Of a stretch of DNA of 42,338 bases, positions 1,365-37,256 are shown in pieces (positions within the stretch are counted from its first letter, which is position 1; the number at the start of each line of letters is the position of its first letter). The position numbers and the translations under genes were made by a program. The DNA lies in IMG/VR virus record IMGVR_UViG_3300042876_001176, positions 1 to 42,338 of that record; one strand, 5' to 3'. This DNA comes from a virus. The notes beneath the pieces are model-generated. The model was given only the letters and a program-made list of their open reading frames with translations, made no database searches and was not told where the DNA came from.

Positions 1365-4300
1365 CTACTGCCTAAACCCAAACACCAGCGCCATCGGGTT
1401 TTCGGTTTTCCCATCATTCAATGCTTCGGCCCCGCTAATGGTCCGATTCACCTGAGCGGACGGCAAGCTGGTTAGGTCGCCGAGGACATTGATAGCGGCT
1501 TTCCGAAACGCCTCGTCGAATTCGCCTTGATACGCCTGGCTGCCCAGCTTGCCAATATCGGTAATAAACCGCAGTCCGGCTGGGCCTTGATAGTCCCGGC
1601 CCATGTCATTGGCACCGGTCACGGTTTTAACTGCGTCGGAAAACTCCCGTACGATCACCATCAAGCCCATTAGGTAATCGATCTGCTGGGCCAGCAATTT
1701 CTTGCTCAGTTCGTCCCAGTCGTCATCGCCGCCGCCGTCAGCTGTCAACGCTTCTTTCAGGAAAAAACCCAACACCGGCGGTGCCGAATACAACATCAGG
1801 TAATCCACGGCCAGTTTGGCTTTTTTCTTTTCAGTCATGGTTTGCGCCACGCCCAGGTTAAAAGCCGTATTCATAAAGCTATAAAACACAGTAAAAAGCT
1901 TCATGAGTTTGTCGCGCTCCATAGCCGATAAGTCTTTAGTCTGCCCGCCGCCCTGTGCATCAATTACCGCCTGATCGGCCAAGGCAATCGCCCTTTCCTC
2001 TTCATTCAAATCGGCGATCGCTTTGTCATAAGCGCCCAACCAGGTCGGCACGTCGACCAGCTGCTGGGCTTTCATCATCATCAAGAAGGTGCCGGATCGG
2101 ATCGCGGCCCGCGCCGGCGTTTCATCCTGCACTCGGTTTCGTAATTCGTTCAGCTCCCGGAACCGGGTGCGGGACCGGTTACGCATGAATTCCGACTTGT
2201 CGTTTACTTCTCGCAATGCTCCTTTCGGATCGCCGATAAAACGGAATATGCCTCGACCTATCCACGGCGCGCCCACCCGCACAATCGATTGCGTAAGCCC
2301 CAAAACCTGCATGGCGGCCGACATAGCATTAAAACCCAGGCCGGCGGCGCTGATGCCTTGCCGTAATTTGCCCAGGGCGATCTCGCCGGCATTGGTCGCC
2401 GCCTGGTCGCCGCCGGCAATATCCTGCTCCCAGCTTTTAAACTGTCGCACCACTTCCGGCCCGTAATGGCCGCGAATCGCTTGGTCGATGGAATGCGACT
2501 TCATCAGCTTATTCATATCGATCAGCCATTCGTGCCAGGCTAAATCGTGAATCACTTCATTGATGCCGGCATACACGCCGGACAGCGAATACAGCAAGGG
2601 CCGGCCCAGGATGGCTTCTTCCCGGTTCTTGGTGAAGCTGCGGCGGGTCGTGGCCGAGCTGTAAGCTCCTTGCATCTGCCGTTTGGCCTCTTCGGCGCTG
2701 GCATGTTGTTCGGCGCGCTGGCTGGCGAGAGGATCGTATTTGATCGGGTAATAGCCGCCCGTCAACCGCAACTCAACAGGCTCTCCGGCGGCGGTTTTGG
2801 TTTGCACGATCACCGGCTTGGGTTCCACCCAATTCGGTTCCTTGCCATAGACGCGGCGTTCCTTGGCGCCGATTTCCGGCCGGTAGCTGTCGAAATAGTC
2901 CCAGATGCGTTGTACGGCTTGCCACTCTTCGGCCGTCAAGGTTTGCAGCACCGGTGTGATTTGCTCGATGCTCCAGCCTTCACCGCCTAAAAGCCGCTGC
3001 AAGTTGCCATCGTTGCCGGTATTCAGCGCCATAGCTAGGCGCATTTCTCGGTTAAGGCTGCGGCCGATGCTAGGGAAAAATTGACCTTTGCCGCCCATCT
3101 TGCCCATCTTGAATATCGGGTTGAGAATGGTCGTCAGCTTTTCGGTGGCGTCGGCGCGGCGAGTGGCTTCATATTCGCCGCGATCGTTGGCGCTACGGAT
3201 GAAATACTCCCACACCGAACCGCCGTCTTGACCACCGTCCAAAATCCGCGCCCAGGTCGACGCCTTGATGTGCGACGCATAAAACCCTTTTAAAAATTGC
3301 CAGGTGCGGCCAGCGTTGGTGGTCGGTGTCCGGGTATCGGCAATGCGGGTGCCGGCATGCTGAATGATGCTGCCGACGATCTCTTGTTTCACTTCCTCGA
3401 AGTTGCGGTTTTTCTTGGCAGTCAACAGCGTATTTTTCAGCCGGCCCAGGTGCTCGATCTGCTTGATGGTATCGACCAGGCCGCGAAACTCTTCGACCGT
3501 CATGTCCTTATAGGAAATCTTGCCGGCCTCGTTCAACAGCTCCAGCGGAATATCCGGTTCATAACCTTGTTCCCGTTGCGACTCCGCCCATTGCGACAAC
3601 GATTTGCGTTTATCCAGAACCTTATTGGTAGTCTTGCGCAAATCGAAGCGCTCCAGTTCCCGATAAATCTGGTCCTTATATTCCGGATCGATCTTGTTAT
3701 TGTCGGCTTCCAGCTTTCGGAAATAGCGTAAACCGGCCTCGACGTCGTCTTGTGCTTGATAAGCGGCACGGGTGGCCTGCACGTTGATGATCTGATTGCG
3801 CTTTTCGGCGGCGGCAATATCCAGCTTGCCGGCTTTCTCGGCAGCGGCGGCGGCCTTGGCGGCCCGCACTTCCGCTCGGGCAAATTGCGCCGGCGAAATA
3901 TCCCGCACTTTAACCCTGGCAACCATGGCTTCGGCAAATTCCTTGGCCGCACTACCCAATAGCCGCAGGGAACCGGTGGCCTTGGCCAGCGCATTGGCTT
4001 CGGTGGTGATAAACCGCGCCCGCACTTCGTTATGAATCGCCAAATCCGCTGCGCGCTGAATCGCGTCGGGCGTCGATAAATCGCCGTAGTTTTGCAACAT
4101 GCGTTCGTCAGTCAGGCGCTCGATCTCATCTTTCGGCGTGGGCGAATCTGCCAGTTTCTTGACCAGCTCATCGCCGGATGAAAAGCCGAACAGTTCCGCG
4201 ATGATGTCCGGATGCAAGCCATCCTTGGCAGTCATTTTCAAGTCGACCAGGCGATTGACCACCGCGTCGGGAATATCGAACAGCGATTTCAGCGCGGCGT

Positions 4301-7300
4301 ATTCGATGCGGCCGGCATTCAATCCGGAGGGATTAATCACCTGTTCGCCGGCTTTGCCTTCCTCGGTGAATATATTGGCACCAAAGCCTAGCGAATACTG
4401 CGCCTGGCCTCGTAATTCCGCGTCGAATTTATCCTCGAATTCGCGGAAATCGTATTTACCGTTGGCGTCTGGTGTCAGATAGCCTTCATCGAGCAGCTTT
4501 TCCGCCATCGCCTCGATCGACAAGCCGCCTTCCTTGCGTACCAAAGGCTTGCCGAAAACCGGTACCGGCGAACGACCAGGCTGATCCCAGTTCCACTCGC
4601 TTTCCAGTTGTTGCCTATCCAAGCCCCCGAGTTTCGCGATGGCGGTAAATAGCGAATCTTGTGTACCATCGACTTTACCAGGATCTGAACCAGACTTTTT
4701 ATCGGTGGCCAGCTTATCGTCAGCGCTGATCTTGCCGGTTAAAAACTTCCAGGCGCGATAGACAGGCTGTTTCAAAACCTCCATCCGCACTTCCGCCCTA
4801 ACCTCTCGCCGCAACTCATCATGCTGGCGTTGTAGTTTTTTCAACTCCCGGTTGCGGGCGTTCTGCAGCCACTGCATATCCCGCAAGCCTTTCAGCGCCA
4901 ACTGTTCCATCGCCGTGCTGGTGGCTTCCTGGCCGGCGGCTTGATAGGCGGCGTATTCCTCGGTCGTCATGCCGGATTGCGCCTGATCGGCGAACAGCGG
5001 CATCATCGACCGCGCCTGCTGGGCTAGTTTGATTTCCTCGTCGGTGGCCAACATCCGGTCAAACACCTGGCGCACTTCGTCGGTCAGTTCGATGTCCTTG
5101 AAGTGGTCGCGGACATGCTCATACACTTTTTTCATCCACTGCCGGAAACTGGCAAAGATGCGGGCCAGTGGTAAGCTGGGTGCGTTGCCTTCAAACAGGT
5201 ATTTCTCAAAACCCTCGGCAAACTGCTCGTGATAGCTGCGCTTTTGCTCAAAGTCCAGGTTGTACCATTCCTCGATAGATTCCAGTCCAAACCATTTCAG
5301 CAAGGCGTCGGTATCATCGAGCAGCTGCTTTTGCGCGGCCGTGGTGCCGACCAGGTCGTTTTCCGCACGCAGATTGGCGGCCAGATCGAACTGCATTTCT
5401 AAAAAGAAATGGCCGGATTCATGCAGGAAGGTGGACAGGTCTGCTTTGTCCAGCAGTGTGATGGTGCGGGTGGCGGGATTAAACGCGCCCCGGTTGCTAT
5501 CGGTGCCCTGATTGAAAGTATCGCGGCTAAATGACAAGCCCACGTCGGCCCGCGAATCAAACGCTTCGCCGTTCTTGTCCAGCACGTCCAGCACCCGCAC
5601 CTGGTTGCTGTTGAAGAATCCGGCCAGGTTCATCACCGCGTTGCTGGTCATGTCGCCCTGATTGACGATGATCGCGGCGGCGGCATTCGCCATCGATAAG
5701 CCGCGGTGGAGGGCATCCATACGGCCATCGGTGCGCAAGGTTTCGGATTGCTCGGATTTAAGCGGGATAAAAGCCACCGGCGCATGCTGGTTGTCCATCA
5801 GCATCACCCCGGATTCGCCCTTGGACAACGTTTTTGCAGTGCTTTTGGCGACATTGGGCGCGCTAACCGGATCGGCCAGTTTGCCTTCCTCGGCATAAAC
5901 CCGTTCGACGACGGGTACGGTTTTAGTTTTATCGGGCTGAGTGGTCGTGCCTTTCTGGTCAGTGCCGCCCTGCTCGCCGGATTCGTAAACCCACTGCCTG
6001 CCATTGCCTTCCGCGCCGGCAATGGCAAAGATACCGCGCGGCGTAATCTCGCTACCGCGAAACACTTCTGCAAGCTTTTTGTTCATGGCCCGGTCGGCGG
6101 CGCTCAGTTCGTTGATGCCGCTCGGGTGATTGTGGGCAAACCAGATATTGGCAGCGCCATTGATGCGGAAGGCTTCGCCGGCGATGGTGGCGGGGTAAAC
6201 GGAGGCTTGATCGATAGCGCCCTTGAAAGCACCGACTATCGCCAAAGGTTTGCCGTCTTTGTCGGTGATCAGCGCATCAAAGCGCTCGACCGTGCTTTTG
6301 GATAAATAGGCTAAGGCTTGGGCGGCTTGTTCCGGCGTGCTGACGAGATCGGCACCAAGTTGTCGGGTATTTTCTTCGACGATCTGGGTTCGGGTACCGT
6401 AGGTGCCGGTTGGGGCGTCGTCGCGCGATAAACCGCCTCCGGTATCTGTGCCGGTGCTATCAGCTTTTCCGGCCTCGGCTGGTACGTCAAATAGGTCAAG
6501 GGTGTAGTCATCGCGTTTTGAACTCCGGCGTTGAAACAGAATGGTATCAGGATTATTATCCTCGGTGGCGATGGTGGAGCGAGTTGTGTCACCTTCACTA
6601 GCAATGCCGTTAGTGTCTGTCCTCGTAACGGCGTCGCCCTGATTATTCTTCTCGGTTTGGCTGAGCGTATTTCCGCCAGCCGATTGACTCGCTACATTGA
6701 CCGGATACAGGCTAAATAATTCCTCCGGCGTCTTTCCAAATTTATCGGCCTGCACCGCATAAAAGTTAGACAGCAAGGCCGCATAGTGATCGTTCACCTT
6801 ATCAGTAAACCGCGACACGCCGGCCAGCTGCTGCTTAATGGTGTCCTTCACGGCCAAGATGGATGCCTGAAAGCTTTCATCGGTCTGCTTATGGGTCAAA
6901 ACCCGCGCAACTTCGGCCTGTAGTTCCTCGGCGTGGTTATCCATATATTGCTTGGCGCCGGCGCGGCTGAACTCTTCGCCCTCGATGCGGATATGGTCGA
7001 CCAAGGGCTGGGCATATTCGGTCGCGGCAATCTTGCTCACGTAATCGCTCATCGCAATCTTGATCTCGCCGCCGGTCGCTAAAGCGGTCGGCAGCTGCTG
7101 GGCCACGTCCGGCAAACTAGCCGCGATTTGTTCGGCAACACCGGACTGGGCAAAGCTCTGAGCATCGATATAGACATTTTGTGCATGGCTATTCGCCAGC
7201 GCCTCATCGATGAAGCTTTGCATCGCGGCCGGATCGCGCTGCAAAACTTTACTGGCAGCAGCAATCTGGTTGATTTGCTCGATGTGCGCGGCTTGTTGGT

Positions 7301-8570
7301 CGGCCTGCTGTGCCAGGCTAAACTGCTCATGAATCCGCTTGCCGGAAACGACCATCACCTCGCTAGGCGTGCCGAATAATTCCCCAAAGGCTTCGGCCAG
7401 AATATTGCCGGGTTGAATATCCTGCCCGGCCACGATCTCGCCGCCCGCCTCGCCCGCTGCGCCTAAACCGGCTTGAATGGGTAGCTGCAGGGCGATATTC
7501 GCCATTTCCTGTGCCAGTGGCCGGTTGACCAGCTTTCCGGCCACGGATTGCGGCAAAACCGCCTTGCTGGCGATGCCGCCGGATATGGCGTCGAATAATC
7601 CCACCACGCCAGCATGCTTGGCCGCTTGCTCGGTAATCTTCGCCAATGTCTGCGGGTTTTGCAGGGCTTCGGTAATGGCGTTAGGATCGGTGACGTCGAC
7701 GCCGGCGTTTTGCAGGTTGCCGACCAGTTCGCCGGCATAGTCCACCAAAGTAGAATTAGCGCCTATGGTGCCGGCTGCTCCGGCTGGGCCGGCATAGAGG
7801 CTGGCGGGAATGGCGGCCAATAAACCGGGCATGGATTGGATCAGGGATTCCGGGCCGATAGCCTCGATAAATTTCAACGGGTCTTTGGATACTTCGCCAA
7901 ATGCTGTGGAAAAATCAGGGGCGCGCATAACATTGCCGACCACGCTGGGCGCTGGAATGGCATTGCGCTCCACTTGCAAGCCGGCCAGATCGGCCGCCGA
8001 TTTCCCAATCCGCTGTTGAATCTTCGGCTGATAAAAATCCCGAAACTGCTGGCGTTCCTCCGGCGTTTTTAGCCTGGCATAACTTTCCCCCAGCACACCC
8101 AATCTATCGCCAAACAGCTTGGGTATATCCGGCTCGCCTGTAGCAATCGCCTGATCGATTTTGTCTAACTGATCAAGTCCCGCCGACTGGTTAAATACCT
8201 GCAAGGCATGCGGCAAGGATTCCAGGGCCGGCACACCGCGCTTAAACGAATTCAGCAGGGTTTCAAGGTGCCCCAGGTTATCGATGTCATCATGAGCGAT
8301 CGCGGCTTTCTTGGGATCTGACAACAAGTTTCCCGTGGCCGGCAACGATTTGGCCAAGGTGTCGTAATCCACGGCATCCAGTTTAGCCCGGCGCTCGACG
8401 GTGCCGGTATCCAGGCGCACCGCTTCGACCGGCAAGTCATACTGCTTGGCCAAGCCTTGCAGCCTGGCTTCGGTATCCGGTTGTTTGTCGACGGCAGTTT
8501 GCAGGGATTGGCGGATATTGTCGGCGCTGTCCTGTTGGATCAGGCCAAGGTAGGGATTGGATTCGTCCAT
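1365..8570 (-). CDS. Giant polyvalent ejection (internal virion) protein with JAB and HExxH domains
   Basis: A 2401-aa protein, the largest in the window, downstream of two other internal virion proteins. Hydrophobic stretches lie near residues 245-290 and 2250-2275. Around residues 735-850 there is a RadC/JAB-like (MPN+) domain with HNHPSG (H813, H815), the usual zinc ligands of that metalloenzyme family. A second zinc-protease motif, HESGH (H1050-H1054), lies in the next segment. Residues about 1200-1750 are charged and helical, and about 1800-1990 resembles regions shared by large phage polyvalent proteins such as DarB. By position and size it should be packaged and injected with the DNA, as T7 gp16 is. 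Peptidase and host-protection roles are inferred from the motifs only. Confidence 0.85.
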   Translation of the reverse strand: MDESNPYLGLIQQDSADNIRQSLQTAVDKQPDTEARLQGLAKQYDLPVEAVRLDTGTVERRAKLDAVDYDTLAKSLPATGNLLSDPKKAAIAHDDIDNLGHLETLLNSFKRGVPALESLPHALQVFNQSAGLDQLDKIDQAIATGEPDIPKLFGDRLGVLGESYARLKTPEERQQFRDFYQPKIQQRIGKSAADLAGLQVERNAIPAPSVVGNVMRAPDFSTAFGEVSKDPLKFIEAIGPESLIQSMPGLLAAIPASLYAGPAGAAGTIGANSTLVDYAGELVGNLQNAGVDVTDPNAITEALQNPQTLAKITEQAAKHAGVVGLFDAISGGIASKAVLPQSVAGKLVNRPLAQEMANIALQLPIQAGLGAAGEAGGEIVAGQDIQPGNILAEAFGELFGTPSEVMVVSGKRIHEQFSLAQQADQQAAHIEQINQIAAASKVLQRDPAAMQSFIDEALANSHAQNVYIDAQSFAQSGVAEQIAASLPDVAQQLPTALATGGEIKIAMSDYVSKIAATEYAQPLVDHIRIEGEEFSRAGAKQYMDNHAEELQAEVARVLTHKQTDESFQASILAVKDTIKQQLAGVSRFTDKVNDHYAALLSNFYAVQADKFGKTPEELFSLYPVNVASQSAGGNTLSQTEKNNQGDAVTRTDTNGIASEGDTTRSTIATEDNNPDTILFQRRSSKRDDYTLDLFDVPAEAGKADSTGTDTGGGLSRDDAPTGTYGTRTQIVEENTRQLGADLVSTPEQAAQALAYLSKSTVERFDALITDKDGKPLAIVGAFKGAIDQASVYPATIAGEAFRINGAANIWFAHNHPSGINELSAADRAMNKKLAEVFRGSEITPRGIFAIAGAEGNGRQWVYESGEQGGTDQKGTTTQPDKTKTVPVVERVYAEEGKLADPVSAPNVAKSTAKTLSKGESGVMLMDNQHAPVAFIPLKSEQSETLRTDGRMDALHRGLSMANAAAAIIVNQGDMTSNAVMNLAGFFNSNQVRVLDVLDKNGEAFDSRADVGLSFSRDTFNQGTDSNRGAFNPATRTITLLDKADLSTFLHESGHFFLEMQFDLAANLRAENDLVGTTAAQKQLLDDTDALLKWFGLESIEEWYNLDFEQKRSYHEQFAEGFEKYLFEGNAPSLPLARIFASFRQWMKKVYEHVRDHFKDIELTDEVRQVFDRMLATDEEIKLAQQARSMMPLFADQAQSGMTTEEYAAYQAAGQEATSTAMEQLALKGLRDMQWLQNARNRELKKLQRQHDELRREVRAEVRMEVLKQPVYRAWKFLTGKISADDKLATDKKSGSDPGKVDGTQDSLFTAIAKLGGLDRQQLESEWNWDQPGRSPVPVFGKPLVRKEGGLSIEAMAEKLLDEGYLTPDANGKYDFREFEDKFDAELRGQAQYSLGFGANIFTEEGKAGEQVINPSGLNAGRIEYAALKSLFDIPDAVVNRLVDLKMTAKDGLHPDIIAELFGFSSGDELVKKLADSPTPKDEIERLTDERMLQNYGDLSTPDAIQRAADLAIHNEVRARFITTEANALAKATGSLRLLGSAAKEFAEAMVARVKVRDISPAQFARAEVRAAKAAAAAEKAGKLDIAAAEKRNQIINVQATRAAYQAQDDVEAGLRYFRKLEADNNKIDPEYKDQIYRELERFDLRKTTNKVLDKRKSLSQWAESQREQGYEPDIPLELLNEAGKISYKDMTVEEFRGLVDTIKQIEHLGRLKNTLLTAKKNRNFEEVKQEIVGSIIQHAGTRIADTRTPTTNAGRTWQFLKGFYASHIKASTWARILDGGQDGGSVWEYFIRSANDRGEYEATRRADATEKLTTILNPIFKMGKMGGKGQFFPSIGRSLNREMRLAMALNTGNDGNLQRLLGGEGWSIEQITPVLQTLTAEEWQAVQRIWDYFDSYRPEIGAKERRVYGKEPNWVEPKPVIVQTKTAAGEPVELRLTGGYYPIKYDPLASQRAEQHASAEEAKRQMQGAYSSATTRRSFTKNREEAILGRPLLYSLSGVYAGINEVIHDLAWHEWLIDMNKLMKSHSIDQAIRGHYGPEVVRQFKSWEQDIAGGDQAATNAGEIALGKLRQGISAAGLGFNAMSAAMQVLGLTQSIVRVGAPWIGRGIFRFIGDPKGALREVNDKSEFMRNRSRTRFRELNELRNRVQDETPARAAIRSGTFLMMMKAQQLVDVPTWLGAYDKAIADLNEEERAIALADQAVIDAQGGGQTKDLSAMERDKLMKLFTVFYSFMNTAFNLGVAQTMTEKKKAKLAVDYLMLYSAPPVLGFFLKEALTADGGGDDDWDELSKKLLAQQIDYLMGLMVIVREFSDAVKTVTGANDMGRDYQGPAGLRFITDIGKLGSQAYQGEFDEAFRKAAINVLGDLTSLPSAQVNRTISGAEALNDGKTENPMALVFGFRQ

Positions 8571-8583: not shown

Positions 8584-9090
8584 TTAGAGGCTACGGTCGT
8601 ATCTTTCTATTTCGGCAATTAATAAAGCGGCGGCTCTAACTAAATCCGCGCGATAGTTTTTTGGTTTCCACCAACTTGAAGACCACGGCCATTCTGGCGG
8701 CGGTTCCCCTTGATTTGGAAATGAGTCTGCATATAACGCGTAACATCCACCCGCAATTGCTAGTTCCGGTTTCTTATATGTGTCATCTAGCTCTGGTGTT
8801 CGGTGTTCAACTTCAATTTGTCGACGCCTTTCGTTTGTAACGTCTATTGCCGCTGTAGAAAACTTACCTACGATTTTTCTGTTTTCTATGGCTTTGTGGA
8901 TACATTCATGATGTGCGAAATGTTCGACTTTCCCAGCAGTTATGATTACCTCCTTTTCATGCTGAGGGTGACTTCTATAAAACATCTGGTTACCGCAAAG
9001 TAAGCAATCAACCGGTCTTACTGCCAATTGCGGAATACAATCGGCTTTTCCGCATGAAATGGTTCTAATGGATGGTGTGCAATAACACAT
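8584..9090 (-). CDS. Phage protein with Cys/His N-terminus and ERRRQ-type C-terminal domain
   Basis: A 168-aa protein in two parts. The first 75 residues are rich in Cys and His (CYC, CGKADC, CLLCG, HFAHHECIH) and look metal-binding. The rest has the pattern ERRRQ ... ELDDTYKKPELAIAGGCYAL ... W-rich ... AALLIAEIERYDR, which I recognise from many uncharacterised phage proteins, usually as a stand-alone domain. It starts with an ATGA overlap on the stop of the 712-aa gene and ends 13 bases before the 2401-aa gene. It is more AT-rich than both neighbours, so it may be a later insertion (moron) between two ejection genes. Confidence 0.65.
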   Translation of the reverse strand: MCYCTPSIRTISCGKADCIPQLAVRPVDCLLCGNQMFYRSHPQHEKEVIITAGKVEHFAHHECIHKAIENRKIVGKFSTAAIDVTNERRRQIEVEHRTPELDDTYKKPELAIAGGCYALYADSFPNQGEPPPEWPWSSSWWKPKNYRADLVRAAALLIAEIERYDRSL

Positions 9091-11228
9091 CAGAGCAACC
9101 CCTTATGCTTCGCATACATATAAAAAATATCGTCTTCACTGATCGCCTGGCCGGGTTTTGCGGCGCGCCAGGCCTCGATGATCTTGGCCCGCTCATCGTC
9201 CGGAATGGGCACCTTGTCTTTCTTCAAGTCCACCAAGACGGCCGGCTTATCGCTGCTGCCCCATAGCAAGCCTTTCACGCCCACTTTGGTAAACATCTGC
9301 GCCGCGACCTTTTGAATCTCTTCAGCATTCAGCTTCTTGCCTTTTTCCTGCTCGGCATCGCCTATGCGCTGATCGAAGGCCGACCAGATTTTGCCGACCT
9401 TAGCCGCGCCTTCCTGGTCGTCATCCTTGGGCGTGGGATCGATGCCGGCTTCGCTCATATAGGTATGCAAAATGTCCTCGGCCGAGCGGGTTTCGGTATG
9501 GCTGCCGTTGGCGGCGCTTTGCTGCTCGCTAGTCAGCTGCTTAAACTCGGTATCGTTCAGCTTGTCGCGGAAGGCCATCAGGTTGGTGTTCTGCAATAGC
9601 CCGCTGTCGGTTTTCAGCTGGTAATACAATTTCCAATCGGTAGCTACCGGTTCGCCGGCCGCTATCTTCTGCCCAAAGTTCATCAGGTTATCGACCTGAT
9701 TGGGCGGCACCGCCGCGCGGACATTCACTGGCAGCGCCGAAAACTTGCCGCCGTTCTGCAGCAGCTGGCGCATGGCCTCCGCCGTGCTTTCCTCTTCGCG
9801 TTGCTTGATGGCCTTGGTTTGCTCTTCGTACTGGTTAGTCACCTCGGCCAATACCTGCTTGCGCAGATCCGGCGAGGCATTGGGGCCGATGTGTTCCAGG
9901 GCCACGGCATGGGCATCGGCCAGCGTCGGCCGTTGATATTGGCCTTCGCCGGCGGCATAGGCATTCATGTTGTGAGTGACGTAGGCTTGGGTTTCTTTCG
10001 GCAGGTAGGTCAGCCAGTTTCCGCCCTCTTTGCCAGCCTTATCGAGCGCCTCTTTGGTCGCGCCTGGCCCGGCGTTATAAGCCGCATAGGCCATGCTTAA
10101 ATCGCCCCGGAAGGTTTTCAGTTGCTGGTTGAAGTAAGCCGCGCCCAGCGCTTTGTTATATTCCGGGTCGTTTTTAAAGCGGTTTTCGTCCCACTCCACC
10201 CCGGCCAGCTTCGCCGCTTCCGGTCCGGTGGCCGGCATCACCTGAGCAATGCCGACTGCGCCTTTCGGGCTGGTGACTGGGTTTTGCGTGCCAGGCACAA
10301 AATGATTGCCGCCGGACTCGGCATTAAACAGAATATTCAGCGCCCGGTCGCCATCGGAAGTTTGCAAGCGTGGTGCAATGTTCGACATCACATTTTGCGC
10401 CATGCCAAACGATGCCCTGGCATCCTGTTCCTTGGTGATGGTCTGATAGGCCTTGAGCATATCGTTAGTGTCCATATCCGGCGCGAAATCGTGCAGGATT
10501 TTGGTGGCGCTGGCATGGTCGTTTTGCGCCAGGGCGGATTGAATCGCCCCGTTCAGCGCGTCGGACTTGTGCTTTTGCGCCTGGGATGCGCCATATTCCT
10601 CGCCGAATCCCTCCAGTTTTCCTAGATCAACACTCGCCGTGTGAATAGCGTCCAGAGACTGACGAATGAGCTCAGGATTGTTATAGTTAAGCCCGATAGT
10701 CTTTTGATTGGTGTCGATGGTGGATACGCCGACGCCGCGTTTATAAACCCGGTATTGCTCCGCTTCATGTTGCAGCAGCTGACCGCGCGTGTGCGTGATA
10801 GCCGATTGCGCATGTTCGGCAAATAGTCTCTTTTGTTCATCGTTCCCCAAGGTGTCGGCGATTTCGCCAAAGGCGTGATCCAGATCGTTGGTGACGTTGT
10901 CGGTTAACGGAATGCTGTTTTGTTGGGTAAATACATCGGCACCGCGAACGTTAAAAGCCCCGTCCTGCCCAAACAGCCTATCCTGCCGGCGCGTTTCGAA
11001 CTGGTTGATGGCGTCTTGGGCACGGGTTCGGTTGGCTTCCTGCTCTTCGCGCATTTGCAGCGTCATGGCCGCATGGCCAATATCCTGAACGGCCGATGAG
11101 GCCTGTTTCAAAAAGGCCTGTTCGGTGCCGCCCAAAAAGTTGCTGGCATCGGTGGGGATATTTTGCCGAACGCCGGGCAGCTCGCTGGGTTCGACTTGCC
11201 GTTGATACTCCGGAACGCGCATGGCCAT
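9090..11228 (-). CDS. Internal virion protein with lytic transglycosylase (SLT) domain
   Basis: A 712-aa protein whose middle (about residues 290-425) is a soluble lytic transglycosylase domain: FNAESGGNHF with the likely catalytic Glu near 304, then GIAQVMP and AYNAGPG. The flanks are long, charged and helical. In T7-like podoviruses such a protein is packed in the capsid core and locally opens peptidoglycan while DNA enters. Its start overlaps the stop of the 168-aa internal protein (TAATG), and its stop overlaps the next ATG. The gene order (small, SLT, giant) matches the T7 ejectosome order gp14, gp15, gp16, although here the SLT domain is in the middle protein. Confidence 0.87.
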   Translation of the reverse strand: MAMRVPEYQRQVEPSELPGVRQNIPTDASNFLGGTEQAFLKQASSAVQDIGHAAMTLQMREEQEANRTRAQDAINQFETRRQDRLFGQDGAFNVRGADVFTQQNSIPLTDNVTNDLDHAFGEIADTLGNDEQKRLFAEHAQSAITHTRGQLLQHEAEQYRVYKRGVGVSTIDTNQKTIGLNYNNPELIRQSLDAIHTASVDLGKLEGFGEEYGASQAQKHKSDALNGAIQSALAQNDHASATKILHDFAPDMDTNDMLKAYQTITKEQDARASFGMAQNVMSNIAPRLQTSDGDRALNILFNAESGGNHFVPGTQNPVTSPKGAVGIAQVMPATGPEAAKLAGVEWDENRFKNDPEYNKALGAAYFNQQLKTFRGDLSMAYAAYNAGPGATKEALDKAGKEGGNWLTYLPKETQAYVTHNMNAYAAGEGQYQRPTLADAHAVALEHIGPNASPDLRKQVLAEVTNQYEEQTKAIKQREEESTAEAMRQLLQNGGKFSALPVNVRAAVPPNQVDNLMNFGQKIAAGEPVATDWKLYYQLKTDSGLLQNTNLMAFRDKLNDTEFKQLTSEQQSAANGSHTETRSAEDILHTYMSEAGIDPTPKDDDQEGAAKVGKIWSAFDQRIGDAEQEKGKKLNAEEIQKVAAQMFTKVGVKGLLWGSSDKPAVLVDLKKDKVPIPDDERAKIIEAWRAAKPGQAISEDDIFYMYAKHKGLL

Positions 11229-11737: not shown

Positions 11738-12082
11738 TTACTCCTGTTTGATTAAAACTTCATCGATCTTGGCTTCATCATCTTCATCGGTATGATGAAT
11801 ACAAAACCAGGTGAAATCGGTGATTGAGATGATTTTATGAACGGTATCGGCTTTGATGGCGATGACCTGCGGGCCTGTGTATTCGCTGATCTCGCCATCG
11901 ATCTCCACTTGCACTGTGCCGCTGGCCAGAATGCTGTAATGCTCATAATGGTGTTTGTGGGTGCCGATCACATAACCAGCCGGCGCCGACATTTGCCGGA
12001 TGTAAACCTTGTTGCCGTCGGTTGGAAAATGGTGTTTTATCCCGAAAAACGCCGCTAAATCTACTATTGGGCTCTGGTTCAT
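11738..12082 (-). CDS. Cupin-fold metal-binding protein, 114 aa
   Basis: A single-domain cupin. Motif 1 reads GTHKHHYEHYSILASG, with likely metal ligands H42, H44 and E47 or H48, followed by a distal His (VHKII, H82). Cupins bind a metal and serve as enzymes or sugar- or ligand-binding proteins. It starts with an ATGA overlap on the oxygenase gene, so the two should be made together. Their place between the tailspike and the ejection proteins is unusual for phage core genes. Its substrate cannot be read from the sequence; a role in modifying or supporting the tailspike is inference. Confidence 0.75.
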   Translation of the reverse strand: MNQSPIVDLAAFFGIKHHFPTDGNKVYIRQMSAPAGYVIGTHKHHYEHYSILASGTVQVEIDGEISEYTGPQVIAIKADTVHKIISITDFTWFCIHHTDEDDEAKIDEVLIKQE

Positions 12083-12666
12083 CGTTGATACCGGGCCTCG
12101 AAGTGATGCGTTCTAATGCAAATCGCCAGCAAGATAATGTCCTGATCGGATTCGTTGACAACTTCGTGGGTCGTATTGTTGTAGAAATGGTAAACATCGC
12201 CGGTTCTGCCAGGCATGCTTTCGCCGTCATCGGTCCAGACGAAAGCCGAGCCGGGAGCGCCTTGAATGCAAACATTAAACTTGTCGTAAAAATCGACATG
12301 CCAACTTCGATCGATATGCGGATGGATTTTATGACCAGGCTTAACCCTGGAAATCAGAATGCCGCCCAGATGCTCACCACGAATGGCCCCCATCAGCATC
12401 CAGATCAGGGAATTGATTGATGGCAATTGGTAATAGGCGGGATACCAAACCGGAAAATGCGGGTCATTGAATCCCGAAAAATCGCCTTTTTCAACATAGG
12501 GCCGTTTATCGTTATACCGCACCCAAATGTCATCGCAATCGCGGTGCGGTGAATCGGGTTGACTGGTACGCTCCCGGTCTGCATTCCATAGCTCGGGCTG
12601 GGTGTGTAGTTCGAATGCTAGTTGTGACACATCGACATTCTGATCCAGTAAAAACATATTTTTCAC
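12079..12666 (-). CDS. Aspartyl/asparaginyl beta-hydroxylase-like 2-oxoglutarate/Fe(II) oxygenase
   Basis: A 195-aa protein with a facial-triad pattern: HPHID (H117, D119) and a distal His in NNTTHEVVN (H167), on a double-stranded beta-helix pattern (GGILISRVKPGHKIHPHID ... GDVYHFYNN). The family couples oxidation of 2-oxoglutarate to hydroxylation of Asp, Asn or other residues. A longer frame opens at 12735, but the GTG at 12666 is preferred: GGGAG lies nine bases upstream, and it forms a GTGA overlap with the tailspike stop. It is followed by the coupled cupin gene. Hydroxylation of a virion protein is a plausible but untested role. Confidence 0.8.
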   Translation of the reverse strand: MKNMFLLDQNVDVSQLAFELHTQPELWNADRERTSQPDSPHRDCDDIWVRYNDKRPYVEKGDFSGFNDPHFPVWYPAYYQLPSINSLIWMLMGAIRGEHLGGILISRVKPGHKIHPHIDRSWHVDFYDKFNVCIQGAPGSAFVWTDDGESMPGRTGDVYHFYNNTTHEVVNESDQDIILLAICIRTHHFEARYQR

Positions 12667-15600
12667 AGTTTTGATCTCCCAATCTGCGGATATTGTGGAA
12701 AAAAAGTCAAGCGGTCGCCGTCGTCGGCCTTCCATGAGCCGATGCCGGAAAAGCCGCGTCTAATCGCTTCGTTGACGGCGCGGTTTTGGGTGTCGGAAAC
12801 GCCCATCCAGGCGCTAAATCCATACGCCGACCAAGTGGCTTCGCCGTCTTCATTGCTGATCAATGCGCCACGCAGCAACCCTTGTGCCAGCGCATCCCAA
12901 AAGCTGTTGTATGAACCGGCGCCGGTATCGTCCCACACGTCGGAATAGGCATTGCAGCCCACTAATACTCGTTTCCGAAATCGGGCCGGGATGGTGGTGG
13001 CGAGATGGTGATAGACCAGATTCCAAAAGTCGGTCGGGGCATGCGGACCAGGTGCGCTGAAATCGCCCGCCTCCAAATAGGTCATGACATGCATGGCATC
13101 CACGCGCTGTACCAGGGCGGCATAGTCGCACCAACCGGTCCAGGCCGGATTATCGTAAGCCGTGCCGGTAATGGCCGGTACGGCGATATGGCAAAGTTTG
13201 CGCTGCGCGTGCAAGGCGTCGGCCACGGCAACGATAAAGGCGGTCGCTGCCGTCCGATCGCTTGGGTAGACGTTTTCGATGTCGACCACCGCACCGTCCC
13301 AGCCATTGTCGACCACAGCATTCACCGCTGCCGTGATATAGCCACTGGGGTAATTGACGACGATGGACGATAGCGCGCCGTCGAAATCCCCAATCGCAAA
13401 GCTGTAATTGGTGAGATACAGCAGGCATTTAACCCCGCGCGCCTGTAAAAACCCTTTGTCATCCGGGAAGGTTTCCAGCACCTCCAGCACCCCGGAACCG
13501 GTGGCCGTGCTCCAGGTTTCGCCGACCGCAAAGGTGCCGGTGACGTTGTGGATTTTGCAAACCAGGTTGTGCGGGTCCGCTGAAAACCAAACGATGTCGC
13601 CGGCGCCGCTGGGGCTGGTGATATGCTGGCCGGCGCTCAGTGTGCCTGTCTTGGCGCTAAAGGTCAGATAGCTAAAACCATCGTTCATCTTGCCTTTGTA
13701 CAGACCTTCCGTGCCCAGCGATCGAGTGCGCAAAAAAGCCAGGCCCTGCATGCTGGTCCCGGTCCAGGTGTCCGAGGCTTCGGTTTTCAGGTAATAAGCG
13801 CCGACCGTGGCATCGATATGGTCGACATAAAACCGTAAGAGCGCCTGCGATCCCGATGCATTGGTCGTCACAAATCGTAGCCAATAATCCCCGGCCTCGA
13901 AGCCGTACGGCGCGCTCAGGCTGATTTCCTGCCAATCCCAGGGCGTATTGGCCGGGGTAAAGCTGGCGATCAATGTCCAGGGGCCGGTGGGCGAGGTGCC
14001 GACATAGCAATCGGCGGCAATCGAATACCAGGCGCCGACCGTCGAGGCGAATTTGAATGCCAGCTTTTCGGCGGTGTGCGCGACCGGTACTTGCAACAGG
14101 AATTTACTGTCGACCTTGGTGCCGTCGGTATAAGTGCCGAATGCTACCCCGACATACAGCGTCGGATTGGCTTCGTTAAAACCGTTGGCCAACCATGCCC
14201 AGGCGGCATTAGCATTGAAATACCAGGCGTCGAAATCGACATAATTCAGGGTGCCGTAGGCATGGCGAATGGTGGCGTTGCCGCCGGCGTCGGGTTCGAT
14301 GGAGGTTTGCCATTTCACGCCGGCATGCTGCACCGGTTGCCAAAGCGCTCCGCAATAGGCCGCCAGATTATTCAGCGAGTTGGCCAATGGGCTGTCGCCA
14401 TACATCAGCAGCCGGGATTGCGCCCATTTGGTCTTGCGTATCCCCGGCTCATTCAATTCGCCTTCCACCCGGTTGGCGGTCGGCCAGGTACTTTGCCCGT
14501 CGATCAAACCCACGGCAGCCATCACGGCTTTCATGCCGGCGCTGATGTCCGAGGTGTTGGTAATTTGCGCGGGACCGATGCCGCCTTCGGCATACGCGCC
14601 GAACGGGTACACCATGCGCTTTGGTGGATTGGCCGAGCCCAACGCCACCGAGTAAGTCTTGATAAAAGCCCGGCCTATCATGTAATCGCTGGCCCAGATA
14701 TCCGAACCGTCGGCTTTCAAATAATAGGCGCCGGGAATCACGGCATGGGTCAATAGATAATCGTTGATCGCTTCCAGGGTATTGACGACGGAATCGGGAA
14801 AGCCGCCTACCCGATCGATGTAAATCCGCAGCAAAGTGGCTGTGCCGTAAGGTGTGGCGTTTTTGGTAACAAACCGCACCCAATAGGTGCCGGCGGCAAA
14901 GGTGTACGGCGTATCGAGATTGATTTCCTGCCAGGCGCGTTGGCTATAATTGGGGGCGAAATTGGCAACTAATGTCCAAGGGCCGGTTTCCGATGTGCCG
15001 ATATAACAATCCGCCGAGATTGGATACCAGGGGCCTATCTCGATCACCAATTTAAACGCCAATGTTTTGGCGGTATGGGCATTGGTGGCAAAGCGGAATT
15101 TACTGTCGACCAGCGTGCCATCGCCATACGTGCCGAATGCCACGCCTAGATACAGCATGGGATCGGCTTCGTTATAGTCGTTTTCATGCCCGGTCCAGAC
15201 AGCATTCAGATAATCGGCGATCACCTGATTGTTTTTGTTCAAATCGGTTTGGACGGCGGCATTAAATGTCGCTTCGCTGACCAATGCCCCGCTACCATCG
15301 CCCAATATCATCACCGGACGCGCCGGCCAACTGGAGCCAGGCGGATAATCGATGATGGCATTGCCACTGCTGACGCCGGGTTTTACCGAGACGCAATCCG
15401 ATGTCAGCGAATAATTACCGGTAAAGTCCGGCAGCGCGTAAATTCGCAACAGCCCAGGGCCGACATTCAGCGTTTGAAAGGTCAGGGTGTAGGTAGTACC
15501 GGCCACGATGGCAAACGGCGTGTCTAGGGTAATGGTGGCAATTTCGCGCTCTACCCATTGCGTGCGGGTGCTGTAGTTGGTCGGCGCAAATACGCCGTTG

Positions 15601-16361
15601 AACACCTCAGTCGCCCCCAGTTTAATCTTGACCTGCACATCATAGCCGGCCCCGGCCGGTACGCCGAGCGCCACCCAAAACCTCAGCAAGCTGACCGTCA
15701 TCGAGGCGGCGGCGACAAAGCTAATTGCCGTGGTGATGGCACGCGAAGAGGGTGTGACGGCGCCGGCGGTGGTCAACGTCGCCGGATCGGTGCCGAACAA
15801 CGGCAAGCCCCACGATATTTTGTCGATGTGTGAATAGTCCCAGTAATAGCGGGTATCGCCGGAATCCCGATACATGACGATGCCGTTATCCTCCCACCAT
15901 GGCCCTTGCATGATCGGTTGCGAATTGCCCGCCACATTGCCCACCGTTAAATGATGCATGTTGTAGGTGTGGCTCATCAGTTCGCACAAGCCGCTGTCCA
16001 CGTAGCTTTTCAGGGTCGCCCAGGGGATAAAGTCGGTTTCCGGCAATCTCAACCGTTGCCGGCGGCCGATGATCGCCAGTCCAAAGGCGATCTTGTGATC
16101 GATCATCCACGGCAAAATCAGTGACGTGGAATCCAGGCCGTCATCCAGGTGGATACAGGCAATCGGATAATCCGGCGACCAGGTGCCCGCCTGCCACTGC
16201 GAATATTGCTCCGGCAGTACAAAGGTATAGCCCAGTTCCAGCAGGTAAACGATATGCGCCTGAATATCGTTGGGGTGTTCGCGGTAGGTCAGTGGTACTT
16301 GGTTCTGCGGCACACAGCCGTGATAGCAGATCAGGACATTGTTCAGGCCGCGTTTAGCCAT
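12663..16361 (-). CDS. Tailspike with split NodB-type deacetylase and GH18-like glycosidase domains
   Basis: A 1232-aa protein directly after the fibre adaptor. The N-terminal part looks like a polysaccharide deacetylase (CE4/NodB): CYHG near residue 10, HLDDG near 75 (catalytic and metal Asp), SHTYNMHH near 129 (metal His pair in the spacing seen in PgaB/IcaB), and VYPFGAY only near 583. The roughly 450 residues between the last two motifs hold at least two beta-sandwich modules; a third copy of the second module lies at about 700-850. Residues about 960-1225 look like a GH18 barrel, with WDGAVVDIEN near 1020 carrying the catalytic Glu. The architecture recalls PgaB, so the receptor may be a GlcNAc polymer. 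The ATG at 16361 is preferred to a TTG at 16373; neither has a strong ribosome site. Confidence 0.85.
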   Translation of the reverse strand: MAKRGLNNVLICYHGCVPQNQVPLTYREHPNDIQAHIVYLLELGYTFVLPEQYSQWQAGTWSPDYPIACIHLDDGLDSTSLILPWMIDHKIAFGLAIIGRRQRLRLPETDFIPWATLKSYVDSGLCELMSHTYNMHHLTVGNVAGNSQPIMQGPWWEDNGIVMYRDSGDTRYYWDYSHIDKISWGLPLFGTDPATLTTAGAVTPSSRAITTAISFVAAASMTVSLLRFWVALGVPAGAGYDVQVKIKLGATEVFNGVFAPTNYSTRTQWVEREIATITLDTPFAIVAGTTYTLTFQTLNVGPGLLRIYALPDFTGNYSLTSDCVSVKPGVSSGNAIIDYPPGSSWPARPVMILGDGSGALVSEATFNAAVQTDLNKNNQVIADYLNAVWTGHENDYNEADPMLYLGVAFGTYGDGTLVDSKFRFATNAHTAKTLAFKLVIEIGPWYPISADCYIGTSETGPWTLVANFAPNYSQRAWQEINLDTPYTFAAGTYWVRFVTKNATPYGTATLLRIYIDRVGGFPDSVVNTLEAINDYLLTHAVIPGAYYLKADGSDIWASDYMIGRAFIKTYSVALGSANPPKRMVYPFGAYAEGGIGPAQITNTSDISAGMKAVMAAVGLIDGQSTWPTANRVEGELNEPGIRKTKWAQSRLLMYGDSPLANSLNNLAAYCGALWQPVQHAGVKWQTSIEPDAGGNATIRHAYGTLNYVDFDAWYFNANAAWAWLANGFNEANPTLYVGVAFGTYTDGTKVDSKFLLQVPVAHTAEKLAFKFASTVGAWYSIAADCYVGTSPTGPWTLIASFTPANTPWDWQEISLSAPYGFEAGDYWLRFVTTNASGSQALLRFYVDHIDATVGAYYLKTEASDTWTGTSMQGLAFLRTRSLGTEGLYKGKMNDGFSYLTFSAKTGTLSAGQHITSPSGAGDIVWFSADPHNLVCKIHNVTGTFAVGETWSTATGSGVLEVLETFPDDKGFLQARGVKCLLYLTNYSFAIGDFDGALSSIVVNYPSGYITAAVNAVVDNGWDGAVVDIENVYPSDRTAATAFIVAVADALHAQRKLCHIAVPAITGTAYDNPAWTGWCDYAALVQRVDAMHVMTYLEAGDFSAPGPHAPTDFWNLVYHHLATTIPARFRKRVLVGCNAYSDVWDDTGAGSYNSFWDALAQGLLRGALISNEDGEATWSAYGFSAWMGVSDTQNRAVNEAIRRGFSGIGSWKADDGDRLTFFPQYPQIGRSKL

Positions 16362-17001
16362 TGGATACCACAATCAATGAGAACTGCTTGCCAACCGCGC
16401 CGGCCTGAAAGGTTAGGTCTATGGAAGTGTAATAGGATGCGCCGCCCACCACGCTGGTATTCAGCACCCATTCCGCTTGGGTTACCGCGCCGTTGATGCA
16501 GACATACACCACCGGCTCCAGCACAAAAGTTTGATCCGGAAAGTCGATATGCACGGTTGTTCCGGTGACTGCAAAGCTTTCCGCATAACTGACACGCTGC
16601 AAGGCTTGGGTTTCCGGAGGATGCAAAATGGTATCGATAATCTGCTGGATCAGAATCACCGCCTTATCCGCGGCATCGTTCAATACCGTTGGGTAAAAAT
16701 TGCCGTGATTGGTCAGCTTCATCAGTTGGGTGTAAGGCACCCCGGATTTGATCACCAGCGTAAAGTTATAGGCGAGCGGCGAAATCAGCGTAATCGAGCC
16801 GCCTGGCGCTGTATCCTGATCAACATTCAGCGCCACCGTGTAATCGACGCCATATGTCAGCGGCAAATCGCCGGTGACTTGAGAGGCCATGACAGCAAGC
16901 GCCTGGTCAGGGCTGAATACTTTGAAGGTAAACGGAAAGGTGCTAACTAGCCCATTGCCGTAATAGGTCGACGAACGGCGAACTTCGCTATCGATAGACA
17001 T
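16354..17001 (-). CDS. Tail fibre/spike adaptor, T7 gp17 N-terminal type
   Basis: A 215-aa protein beginning SSTYYGNGLVSTFPFTFKVF, then a GVDYTV ... GGSITL ... SGVPYTQ pattern. This is the signature of the T7 gp17 N-terminal domain that docks fibres on the tail tube. The middle (NDAADKAVILIQQIIDTIL) matches the following helix. Here the adaptor ends after about 215 residues with a small beta-rich domain, and the receptor-binding enzymes are on the next gene, so it probably anchors the large tailspike. Its start overlaps the stop of the gp13-like gene (ATGA), and its end overlaps the tailspike start by eight bases. Confidence 0.85.
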   Translation of the reverse strand: MSIDSEVRRSSTYYGNGLVSTFPFTFKVFSPDQALAVMASQVTGDLPLTYGVDYTVALNVDQDTAPGGSITLISPLAYNFTLVIKSGVPYTQLMKLTNHGNFYPTVLNDAADKAVILIQQIIDTILHPPETQALQRVSYAESFAVTGTTVHIDFPDQTFVLEPVVYVCINGAVTQAEWVLNTSVVGGASYYTSIDLTFQAGAVGKQFSLIVVSNG

Positions 17002-20137: not shown

Positions 20138-21490
20138 TTAAAATTTAAACACAGGAACAGCTCTTGCTGCAACTATTGCCAAATTCGCCTTTTGCAATTC
20201 ATGCTTGCCGTCAGATGTCCAGCCCGGAGAATTCCAGATTCCTGAGTCCCTGAACGTTTCCATAATATTTGCAACATCGATAACATAATCGATTCCATTG
20301 ATTAACCCAGACCTCAATGAATTATTGTCAGCAACGCGAATCGCTTCGATTGGAGCGGACGGGATTGACTGATTGCCAGGAGTGGCAAATGAGTCGGTTG
20401 ATGTGGTGTGTGGAGATGCTGTAACCCACCCTATTCGTTTACCGGCAAACTTTCCAGCGATCAGCGTTTGCCTATCTGCTGCTACTTGCGCCGCCGATCT
20501 TCCGCCTGAATCATAATCATTGAATCCAAGGTCGCTGATAATGTCTGTAAAATACGCTAACATATTGGCTCTATTGACCGCTTTAGTCAGATACCAATCT
20601 GCCCTGTCCCCGTTAACTCCGTAATTTGCAGAACAGACAAACTGCCCTATAGAGCGTTCTATAGTACCTGTTTGCATTGATGAATCTGTTGTGTCACCTT
20701 TCCCTTGTATCCTGCTTGTACCAACAAGGGCCACGGCCCGTTTAGAGCTTTTTGCGGTTATCGCGCAAGCTCCATAATACTGGTTAGCCCCTGACGAATT
20801 TATAGTCCCCGACATTGTTTTATCAGTAAGACCTGACGCTCCGAACTCGGATAACGCACCCCCGTAAGCTCCAGCGGCTTTATTGCAAAATACAATCCCG
20901 GCAGTTGAAACGAAAAATGACCTGATGATATATTTCGATCCTTTCGGTATCGTGAAACTCAAAGGGTCCGATTTTAAGTTGGAAACATCCGCTATCGTTC
21001 CAGACGGCGACCCGCTAAATGTCAACTGGTTCCGTGTCCCGATGGGGTATTCTATACTTGCCGTCAGTGTTGCAACTGCGCCAGTCCCCGTCTCCACTCC
21101 AGAGGTTGTGTTATCAACATACCAATTGGGCCACTCGACTTGAAGACCGACTAAGTCTTCGTGCGCGAATTGAGGGTCATACGTCAGTATTTGCTTGTTT
21201 GTACTACTGAATGAATCCGGCAAAAACACGTGATGACCAACATATCTTAGACTGCTTACGTCAGCGCCTGTTTTAGCATTATATAAAACCACCCCATCCG
21301 ACACATAAACCGTATCTGATCCCGTGACCATGTACTGGCCGATCGGGAGTGGCAGCGAGGCTTGGAGGGCAGCTAGTGTGGGATATTCTCTAATCAACCT
21401 GGAAATACTGCTATCAAAATTAATGAACCCATCCAGCACCTTCCCATCGTCCGAATAAATCCCCGCCGGCGCCTGACCTACTTTCGACAT
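20138..21490 (-). CDS. SGNH/GDSL-hydrolase-like tail-associated protein
   Basis: A 450-aa protein. The N-terminal 90 residues (LIREYPTLAALQASLPLP ... DTVYVSDGVVLYNA) look like a virion attachment segment; residues about 110-230 are beta-rich. From residue 250 the SGNH blocks appear in order: VGTSRIQGKGD (likely nucleophile S259, with GTS in place of GDS), YGVNGD near 292, LGFND (N324) and DGKH (D427, H430). Such esterases on virions remove O-acetyl groups from host polysaccharides. The gene is clearly AT-richer than its neighbours (one 60-base line counted at 40 percent GC, against 55 percent in the nozzle gene), so it was probably acquired separately. Ribosome site AGGGG upstream. Confidence 0.75.
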   Translation of the reverse strand: MSKVGQAPAGIYSDDGKVLDGFINFDSSISRLIREYPTLAALQASLPLPIGQYMVTGSDTVYVSDGVVLYNAKTGADVSSLRYVGHHVFLPDSFSSTNKQILTYDPQFAHEDLVGLQVEWPNWYVDNTTSGVETGTGAVATLTASIEYPIGTRNQLTFSGSPSGTIADVSNLKSDPLSFTIPKGSKYIIRSFFVSTAGIVFCNKAAGAYGGALSEFGASGLTDKTMSGTINSSGANQYYGACAITAKSSKRAVALVGTSRIQGKGDTTDSSMQTGTIERSIGQFVCSANYGVNGDRADWYLTKAVNRANMLAYFTDIISDLGFNDYDSGGRSAAQVAADRQTLIAGKFAGKRIGWVTASPHTTSTDSFATPGNQSIPSAPIEAIRVADNNSLRSGLINGIDYVIDVANIMETFRDSGIWNSPGWTSDGKHELQKANLAIVAARAVPVFKF

Positions 21491-34854: not shown

Positions 34855-35042
34855 TCCGCTTCAGGTTCGCCAAAGAACGTCTCAAGTTTCGAGACACTAA
34901 CAACACCGGGATTTGGAATTTTTCCGCGCGCAAACTTGGTAAGCCAATCAAATTTAACCCCGGACTGATCCGCCAGAACCCGGTAATTGCCATGACTACG
35001 CACGCGATCACGAAGATGATTTGTTTTGCTCAAAATATTCAT
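34833..35042 (-). CDS. Cro-like XRE-family regulator, 69 aa
   Basis: A small helix-turn-helix protein: HLRDRVRSHGNYRVLADQSG followed by VKFDWLTKFARGKIPNPGVVSVSKLETFF. The pattern, with GV..DWL.KFA.GK.PNPG in the recognition helix region, is common in phage Cro-type regulators. It diverges from the CI-like gene, and the gap of 69 bases holds an operator. It probably heads the leftward early operon and represses the immunity promoter. Which partner plays Cro and which CI is inferred from size and gene order. Confidence 0.75.
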   Translation of the reverse strand: MNILSKTNHLRDRVRSHGNYRVLADQSGVKFDWLTKFARGKIPNPGVVSVSKLETFFGEPEADKCGGTR

Positions 35043-35053
35043 GCGCCCAGATT

Positions 35054-35067
35054 AGTAAAACTTTACT
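35054..35067. promoter_or_regulatory. Operator between the Cro-like and CI-like genes
   Basis: AGTAAA-AC-TTTACT is a six-base inverted repeat with a two-base spacer, 12 bases upstream of the Cro-like start. The same motif recurs at 36796-36809 and, less exactly, at 36827-36840. Likely bound by one or both divergent XRE proteins. Confidence 0.65.
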
Positions 35068-35111
35068 CAAAAAACAAGCAAAATTTTCCTCATGACTTTT
35101 TTTATGATCCG

Positions 35112-35483
35112 ATGATGAATGAAGAAGCGAAAAATCTCGCCCGAAATCTAAGGCGGATAATGGATTATCACGAGCACAATCAAAGGGATGTTGAGAAAAT
35201 TTCGGGCGTTGCACAAAAAACGGTCTCAAACATCCTTAATCCAGGGGATGAAAAATCCACGCGCCTAGACATCATTGAAGCAATAGCAAAAGGATATGGA
35301 ATGAAGACGTGGCATTTGTTGATAGATGACCTTCCGGAAGAATTGCTTATAAATCACTCTATTGAAAAGGTAATCGACAACTTTAGACACTCAAGCCCCA
35401 AGGGCCGAGATGCGATTCTTAAAGTTTCTGAGGCAACGGCTGACTATAGTCTCGATGCCGAAAAAAAACTGAATCAGGCATAG
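35112..35483 (+). CDS. CI-like XRE-family repressor without peptidase domain
   Basis: A 123-aa protein (ATG 35112, or 35115 next to it). The helix-turn-helix spans LARNLRRIMDYHEHNQRDVE, then KISGVAQKTVSNILNPG (residues about 8-48), followed by a helical tail. There is no LexA/S24 peptidase domain, so RecA-driven self-cleavage is unlikely. No ribosome site is visible, and a TATGAT box ends four bases before the ATG, so a near-leaderless mRNA is possible. Divergent from the Cro-like gene, with the membrane-protein cassette downstream. Confidence 0.75.
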   Translation: MMNEEAKNLARNLRRIMDYHEHNQRDVEKISGVAQKTVSNILNPGDEKSTRLDIIEAIAKGYGMKTWHLLIDDLPEELLINHSIEKVIDNFRHSSPKGRDAILKVSEATADYSLDAEKKLNQA

Positions 35484-35500
35484 GCTTACGGACATAAAAA

Positions 35501-35839
35501 ATGGCTGCATTCCTAAGCTTAATTATTCAAGCTGTTGGCTTTGTAACGTCTATATATCTAGGTTTTACTCGGGATATTAAGCAGGGGCTATTGTTAGCTA
35601 TAGCAATAGGTCTAGGACACTTCGCATTTACACAATTATCAAATTTTTTAATGTTTATTCATCAAAAAACTCTAGCTAATTATGAGCTCGATGAGTTGAA
35701 CTTGCGCGCTGTTTCAGGTTTTGGCGCAGAAAAGATTCTAAATGTTTGGCGCCGAATTTCATCAGTTTGTGGGTTAATGTATTTTTGCTTTTCTTCTGCA
35801 GCGATATGGTTATTTGTTACCGGTTCAAATCCGTTCTAA
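35501..35839 (+). CDS. Membrane protein of immunity cassette, 112 aa
   Basis: Three hydrophobic segments: residues about 4-20, 28-52 and 88-107 (SVCGLMYFCFSSAAIWLFV), separated by a polar stretch (NYELDELNLRAVSGFGAEKI). It follows the CI-like gene by 17 bases and would be co-transcribed in the lysogen. Small membrane proteins in this place often alter host surfaces or exclude other phages; no sequence evidence assigns this one. AT-rich. Confidence 0.65.
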   Translation: MAAFLSLIIQAVGFVTSIYLGFTRDIKQGLLLAIAIGLGHFAFTQLSNFLMFIHQKTLANYELDELNLRAVSGFGAEKILNVWRRISSVCGLMYFCFSSAAIWLFVTGSNPF

Positions 35840-37247: not shown

Positions 37248-37256
37248 GAGTTCGCC

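Follow-up and report, generated by a model that had tools for sequence, protein, structure and literature searches.

A predicted phage tail enzyme joining a PgaB/IcaB-type deacetylase domain, interrupted twice in its sequence, to a GH18 glycosidase domain, with a constant upstream partner

The window analyzed here, the whole 42,338-nucleotide stretch of virus record IMGVR_UViG_3300042876_001176, carries among its tail genes an enzyme in which a NodB domain of the PgaB/IcaB type is followed by a GH18 domain, and which is preceded by a gene ending in a small partner domain. With a probability of roughly 0.62, these two genes form a module, carried on the virion, for the de-N-acetylation and cleavage of a surface polymer of the GlcNAc type, PNAG being the leading candidate. 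The double interruption of the deacetylase barrel, as traced in sequence, and the constant partner domain are the strongest new points, and the substrate is the weakest point of this reading.

The enzyme is encoded on the minus strand by an open reading frame of 1236 codons from a TTG at 16373, or 1232 from an ATG at 16361, with its stop at 12663. The ATG matches the start of the closest relative (locus L030, at about the equivalent Met), and the limits 12663-16361 given by the initial annotation fit this start. A plus-strand enzyme at 12663-16361 was rejected, as that strand has no open frame there. Residues are numbered with the TTG codon as 1, so that those of the initial annotation are 4 lower. 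The gene and the features of its deacetylase and beta-sandwich regions are as follows.

12663..16361, minus strand: complete gene of the enzyme; 1232 aa if translated from ATG 16361, with TTG 16373 as the other possible start
15918..16361, minus strand: NodB barrel segment A, residues 5-152, with motif 1 (D77-D78) and motif 2 (H135, H140); TIGR03938, IcaB/PgaB structures, hhalign to PgaB 31-179
16140..16145, minus strand: Asp pair D77 D78, catalytic/metal, invariant in the family
15954..15971, minus strand: HTYNMH, metal His pair H135/H140 with PgaB-type H-x4-H spacing; family conservation, structure matches
15351..15917, minus strand: insertion I, about 153-341, a conserved linker and beta-sandwich 1, whose strands span about 188-325; PgaB has no counterpart in the alignment
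15183..15350, minus strand: NodB barrel segment B, about 342-397, matching PgaB about 180-226 between motifs 2 and 3; hhalign
14643..15182, minus strand: insertion II, about 398-577, beta-sandwich 2, CBM-like by fold; model, profile alignment
14379..14642, minus strand: NodB barrel segment C, about 578-665, with YPFG motif 3 (589-592) and conserved R646 and R654; hhalign to PgaB 228-280
13716..14180, minus strand: third sandwich, 732-886, a copy of insertion II at 51% identity

The short motifs singled out in the initial annotation, HLDDG (75-79), SHTYNMHH (134-141), VYPFGAY (588-594) and WDGAVVDIEN (1025-1034), are all present, and profile matches and invariance in the family speak against chance. 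The NCBIfam PgaB model TIGR03938 matches residues 14-161 (E 5e-10; 38.2 bits, below its full-length equivalog cut-off of 321.9 bits), phmmer retrieves the IcaB structure 4wcj at 1.4e-8 plus two PgaB structures, and IcaB and PgaB are the top Foldseek matches, from 8.7e-9, of a predicted model of residues 5-726. Motifs 1-3 of PgaB-type NodB occur in order (DD 77-78, H-x4-H 135-140, YPFG 589-592), and the Asp-His-His metal site and catalytic Asp of CE4/NodB enzymes are invariant in the family. PF01522 (cut-off 23.1 bits) does not match the whole window protein and reaches 17.4 bits when the segments are spliced; relatives L016 (24.4) and L038 (27.5) pass the cut-off. The PgaB/IcaB assignment, proposed from the H-x4-H spacing, is thus supported by TIGR03938 and by the structure matches, and deacetylase activity is predicted.

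The barrel was traced by comparing a profile of 15 enzyme-family members with one of four PgaB-type NodB proteins (L007, L041, L042, L043). Sliding windows matched 5-152 to PgaB 31-179, about 349-397 to 180-226 and about 580-665 to 225-280, three collinear blocks in the order A, B, C, and because of this the NodB barrel is, as far as aligned sequence can tell, interrupted twice, by two beta-sandwich insertions. The initial annotation had recognized an interruption, but as a single one of about 450 residues of repeated sandwich modules; the sandwiches are there, but so is a piece of PgaB barrel (about 342-397), and the repeat copy lies at 732-886. Joined, A, B and C align with the PgaB profile over 235 columns (hhalign score 139.3, E 2.4e-19), whereas A and C alone score 119.7 in an alignment that ends at motif 2, with C not joined. 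Adding segment B brings C into the alignment, and three pieces gain almost 20 score units over two. Segment B alone matches PgaB at an hhalign E of 1.2e-3 and is in register in the three-piece alignment. Because segment C alone scores 21.4 against a shuffle maximum of 20.7 (0 of 300 shuffles reach it; E 0.018), it is supported chiefly by how it aligns together with the other pieces and by conservation of YPFG, R646 and R654.

The AlphaFold model rests on a shallow alignment; its confidence is good for segment A, the two sandwiches and the B helix, but poor for much of C, including around YPFG. Since the model is poor there, closure of the three segments into one barrel is something that we infer. 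The low confidence around YPFG and the weak alignment of C by itself could be taken to mean that segment A is a partial NodB relic and that the YPFG region sits in another domain. Such a division into two separate domains is nevertheless very improbable: B and C together score 37.7, compared with a maximum of 21.9 in 300 column shuffles, in the right order and place, the third piece improves the alignment as described, and YPFG and both Arg are invariant or nearly so in the family.

The module at 400-577 recurs as the third sandwich, after the deacetylase, and this copy was not found at that place in any relative. Loose fold matches of the insertion sandwiches include CBM32 pairs and phage baseplate proteins (Foldseek). 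A fold search of BFVD likewise gave loose sandwich matches only, the architecture of the enzyme being absent among the best 50.

The C-terminal part of the enzyme contains the glycosidase.

12666..13475, minus strand: GH18 domain, about 967-1236, DGxxxDxE, with E1033 as the likely acid; Pfam PF00704, Foldseek
13275..13301, minus strand: WDGAVVDIE, GH18 catalytic strand, 1025-1033, with D1026 and E1033 invariant

PF00704 matches residues 1008-1152 (E 9.9e-9) with 35.7 bits, above its cut-off of 29.6 bits, and a model of the C-terminal region retrieves GH18-type TIM barrels by Foldseek (YdhD at 2.3e-18, 4q6t at 3.9e-17, also 5jh8 and SleL), so that the GH18-like site proposed earlier is borne out. 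The DGxxxDxE signature is complete in the window (D1026, D1031, E1033), and in the compared members D1026, E1033, Y1099 and W1214 all show conservation. GH153, the glycosidase of PgaB, was rejected: PF14883 has no match in the window or in the family members scanned, while a real PgaB used as a control gives 6.4e-151. By sequence and fold, the glycosidase is a true GH18 domain, for which hydrolysis is predicted.

Position 1031 is less constant: the window and L030 have Asp, L031 has Thr, and 12 other relatives have Asn. The Asp at this GH18 position steadies the N-acetyl group. Its replacement in 13 relatives, together with the large binding-type sandwiches, would suit a receptor-binding protein in which the enzyme folds are kept mainly to bind, the deacetylase or GH18 domain being inactive or nearly so in many members. 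Asn-x-Glu, however, is the working catalytic pair in GH85, so Asn at 1031 need not mean lost activity; the window itself has the canonical Asp, and the metal triad, both motif-1 Asp, the GH18 Glu and the first GH18 Asp are invariant across diverse phages. A mainly binding role is accordingly quite unlikely.

Peptidoglycan is the other target to be weighed. A tail enzyme directed at it would use a YdhD/SleL-type GH18 domain to cut the glycan strand and the deacetylase to modify it, thereby aiding DNA entry. The nearest GH18 folds do include the sporulation glycosylase YdhD and the cortex-lytic SleL, the copy in phage PMBT3 is annotated as a peptidoglycan hydrolase, and the L032 and L038 members adjoin Amidase_3 lysis genes. 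The deacetylase, in contrast, is nearest to PgaB/IcaB and not to peptidoglycan deacetylases, a virion transglycosylase (SLT, 9090-11228) is already encoded separately by the window phage, and a place behind a tail-fibre adaptor is what a surface receptor enzyme would occupy. We regard the peptidoglycan reading as unlikely and retain the surface-polymer module.

The upstream gene is composed of two parts.

16630..17001, minus strand: tail adaptor domain of the T7 type, making up the N-terminal half of the upstream gene; matches to PHROG tail/tail fibre families (2e-18) and to BPP-1 Bbp9 (39.5%)
16357..16599, minus strand: partner (docking) domain of about 80 aa that forms the C-terminal part of the upstream gene and is conserved in 18/18 loci

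The enzyme follows tail genes and this adaptor, the position typical of tailspike depolymerases, and its neighbors are phage tail genes rather than a pga operon. The name tailspike in the initial annotation holds for the tail location and is loose otherwise, as no anchor is seen in the protein itself, which follows an adaptor encoded by another gene. The portal protein of the window phage is nearest to Bordetella BPP-1-like and environmental podoviruses, and the adaptor, enzyme, gp13-like and internal virion genes are common to the window and L030.

The same two-gene unit occurs in at least 17 other phage loci, giving 18 with the window. A single-protein scan of viral contigs gave no relatives, and an alignment-based search was needed to find them; they comprise PMBT3, two Acinetobacter phage-like plasmid records, one MAG contig and many IMG/VR contigs. 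D77, D78, H135, H140, YPFG and E1033 are conserved in up to 18 of these phage loci. An Acinetobacter "phage" match (H4) was rejected as host DNA with a pga operon, and an apparent N-terminal extension of about 300 residues in L016 is an artefact of an ORF start chosen over the upstream partner gene. In one Acinetobacter indicus phage-like plasmid (L006 4074-6040), an insertion carrying a transposase splits the enzyme gene beyond the initial portion of the deacetylase.

In each of the 18 loci, the partner domain is encoded immediately upstream of the enzyme (hmmsearch E 1.7e-44 to 2.7e-7, with a profile built from four of the 18 loci it was scored on). The window, L030, L005 and L006 have it fused to a T7-type adaptor, PMBT3, L032 and L038 to other N-termini, and it is free-standing in most of the cases in which DUF2460, often found at the enzyme C-terminus in siphophage members, is fused to the enzyme. 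Docking as a plain pairing of adaptor and tailspike was thus widened, given the free-standing partner in DUF2460-fused siphophages. Partner domains are divergent, too much so for a broad alignment to serve in scanning; a reciprocal scan of viral contigs with the domain gave six loci, all with the enzyme. On the simplest reading, the partner is obligate and would bind the enzyme. A more elaborate proposal, possible but tentative, is a phage-only tail machine in which one polymer chain would be gripped by the in-barrel sandwiches, deacetylated and passed to the GH18 domain, while the partner would serve as an exchangeable coupling through which phages with different hosts could carry the enzyme on a podovirus adaptor, a siphovirus fibre or a DUF2460 tail tip.

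For the two-gene module, the following course can be proposed. The upstream gene would supply the tail adaptor and the partner of about 80 residues, which would hold the enzyme on the tail. The PgaB-type de-N-acetylase would be metal-dependent, with D77 as the base, D78, H135 and H140 binding the metal, and YPFG as motif 3, and the two beta-sandwich modules within the barrel would probably grip the polymer. The GH18 glycosidase would then act, with E1033 as the acid and D1031 positioning the N-acetyl group. Removal of acetyl groups and cutting of a GlcNAc-type surface or biofilm polymer would let the phage reach the cell wall.

It is plausible, as first suggested, that a GlcNAc polymer is deacetylated and hydrolyzed in consecutive steps. 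A GH18 enzyme, however, normally cleaves beta-1,4 linkages of GlcNAc and depends on the N-acetyl group, which means that deacetylation beforehand could hinder the GH18 domain; this order of action is the main weakness of the in-series idea. The hydrolase of PgaB needs a deacetylated polymer and cuts only deacetylated PNAG (PMC5933820).

Hosts offer some bearing on the substrate. A PgaB scoring above the curated cut-off is encoded in the same MAG as L011, a single case that depends on correct binning, and Acinetobacter has pga loci, as in L007. Among 297 sampled genomes of the phylum of the L011 MAG, a full-length match was present in that MAG only; the other matches were mostly PgaB-sized proteins or GH18 stretches (ORFs mostly 1105-1168 aa). 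Two such cellular ORFs were examined (L056 1779-5090 and L057 718-4101), and both, of about 1100 aa, carry CE4 and GT2 with GH18 in front; one passes the Pfam GH18 cut-off, and BLAST aligns the other with the phage GH18. As GH18, CE4 and GT2 share one cellular chain, the two enzyme types therefore already co-occur beside a polymer synthase. L032 and L038 possibly belong to phages of Gram-positive hosts. PNAG also occurs in Gram-positive hosts.

Several other genes of the window deserve mention. Directly downstream of the enzyme, 11738-12082 (minus strand) encodes a cupin that also matches the PHROG families "tail fiber adhesin" and "short tail fiber" (2e-15), and the small gene at 12079-12735 (minus strand), also downstream, is cupin- or Asp-Asn beta-hydroxylase-like; both may be further tail or modification proteins. 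The 450-aa product of 20138-21490 (minus strand), which adjoins the tail genes, has a PHROG match to lysophospholipase L1-like esterases and is possibly a second, O-deacetylating surface enzyme. The product of 1365-8570 (minus strand), 2401 aa long, contains LPD22 and a JAB domain resembling RadC and occupies the place of an ejected internal virion protein. The phage looks temperate because 34992-42338 contains a repressor-like gene, RdgC, an HNH endonuclease and an integrase that reaches the right end of the window.

The enzyme has counterparts among both cellular and phage proteins. Like PgaB, it has a PgaB/IcaB-type NodB domain with motifs 1-3 in order, followed by a TIM-barrel glycosidase; PgaB, however, is a periplasmic export protein with an uninterrupted NodB domain and GH153, whereas the window enzyme is a phage tail module with an interrupted NodB domain and GH18. 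Because GH153 is absent, it resembles PgaB without being one, so that the earlier label PgaB-like holds for layout and not for membership. IcaB of Ammonifex degensii (4wcj), the best sequence and fold match of segment A, is a single uninterrupted domain without a glycosidase. YdhD, SleL and 4q6t share the fold and GH18 site but are cellular or spore enzymes without a joined NodB domain in those structures, and the cellular GH18-CE4-GT2 proteins (e.g., L056, 1104 aa) hold GH18 and CE4 in one chain, but in reversed order, with GT2 attached and with low GH18 identity to the phage domain.

Among phage proteins, PMBT3 AUM59625 (annotated peptidoglycan hydrolase / minor tail protein) has the same architecture, at 31% identity over both parts, and a partner domain encoded directly upstream; unlike the window phage, PMBT3 is a siphovirus, and its unit lacks the third sandwich, has Asn at 1031 and carries the partner on a different N-terminus. 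The annotation of this member (L001 7989-11045) as a peptidoglycan hydrolase (YvbX) misses the deacetylase part. No description of a phage tail protein pairing a NodB deacetylase with GH18 was found in the literature searched. Phages Aristophanes and Possum resemble the window phage in tail-borne polysaccharide deacetylation, a likeness by description only, and the parts of these reports available to us do not describe a NodB-GH18 pair (PMC8471582; PMC9569702). The window enzyme would belong with the phage depolymerases. Should PNAG prove to be its substrate, it would correspond on the phage side to PgaB and could lead to enzymes for attacking a biofilm polymer that many bacteria produce. Its three-piece barrel and constant partner would also make it a clean case of tail enzymes re-mounted between unrelated virions.
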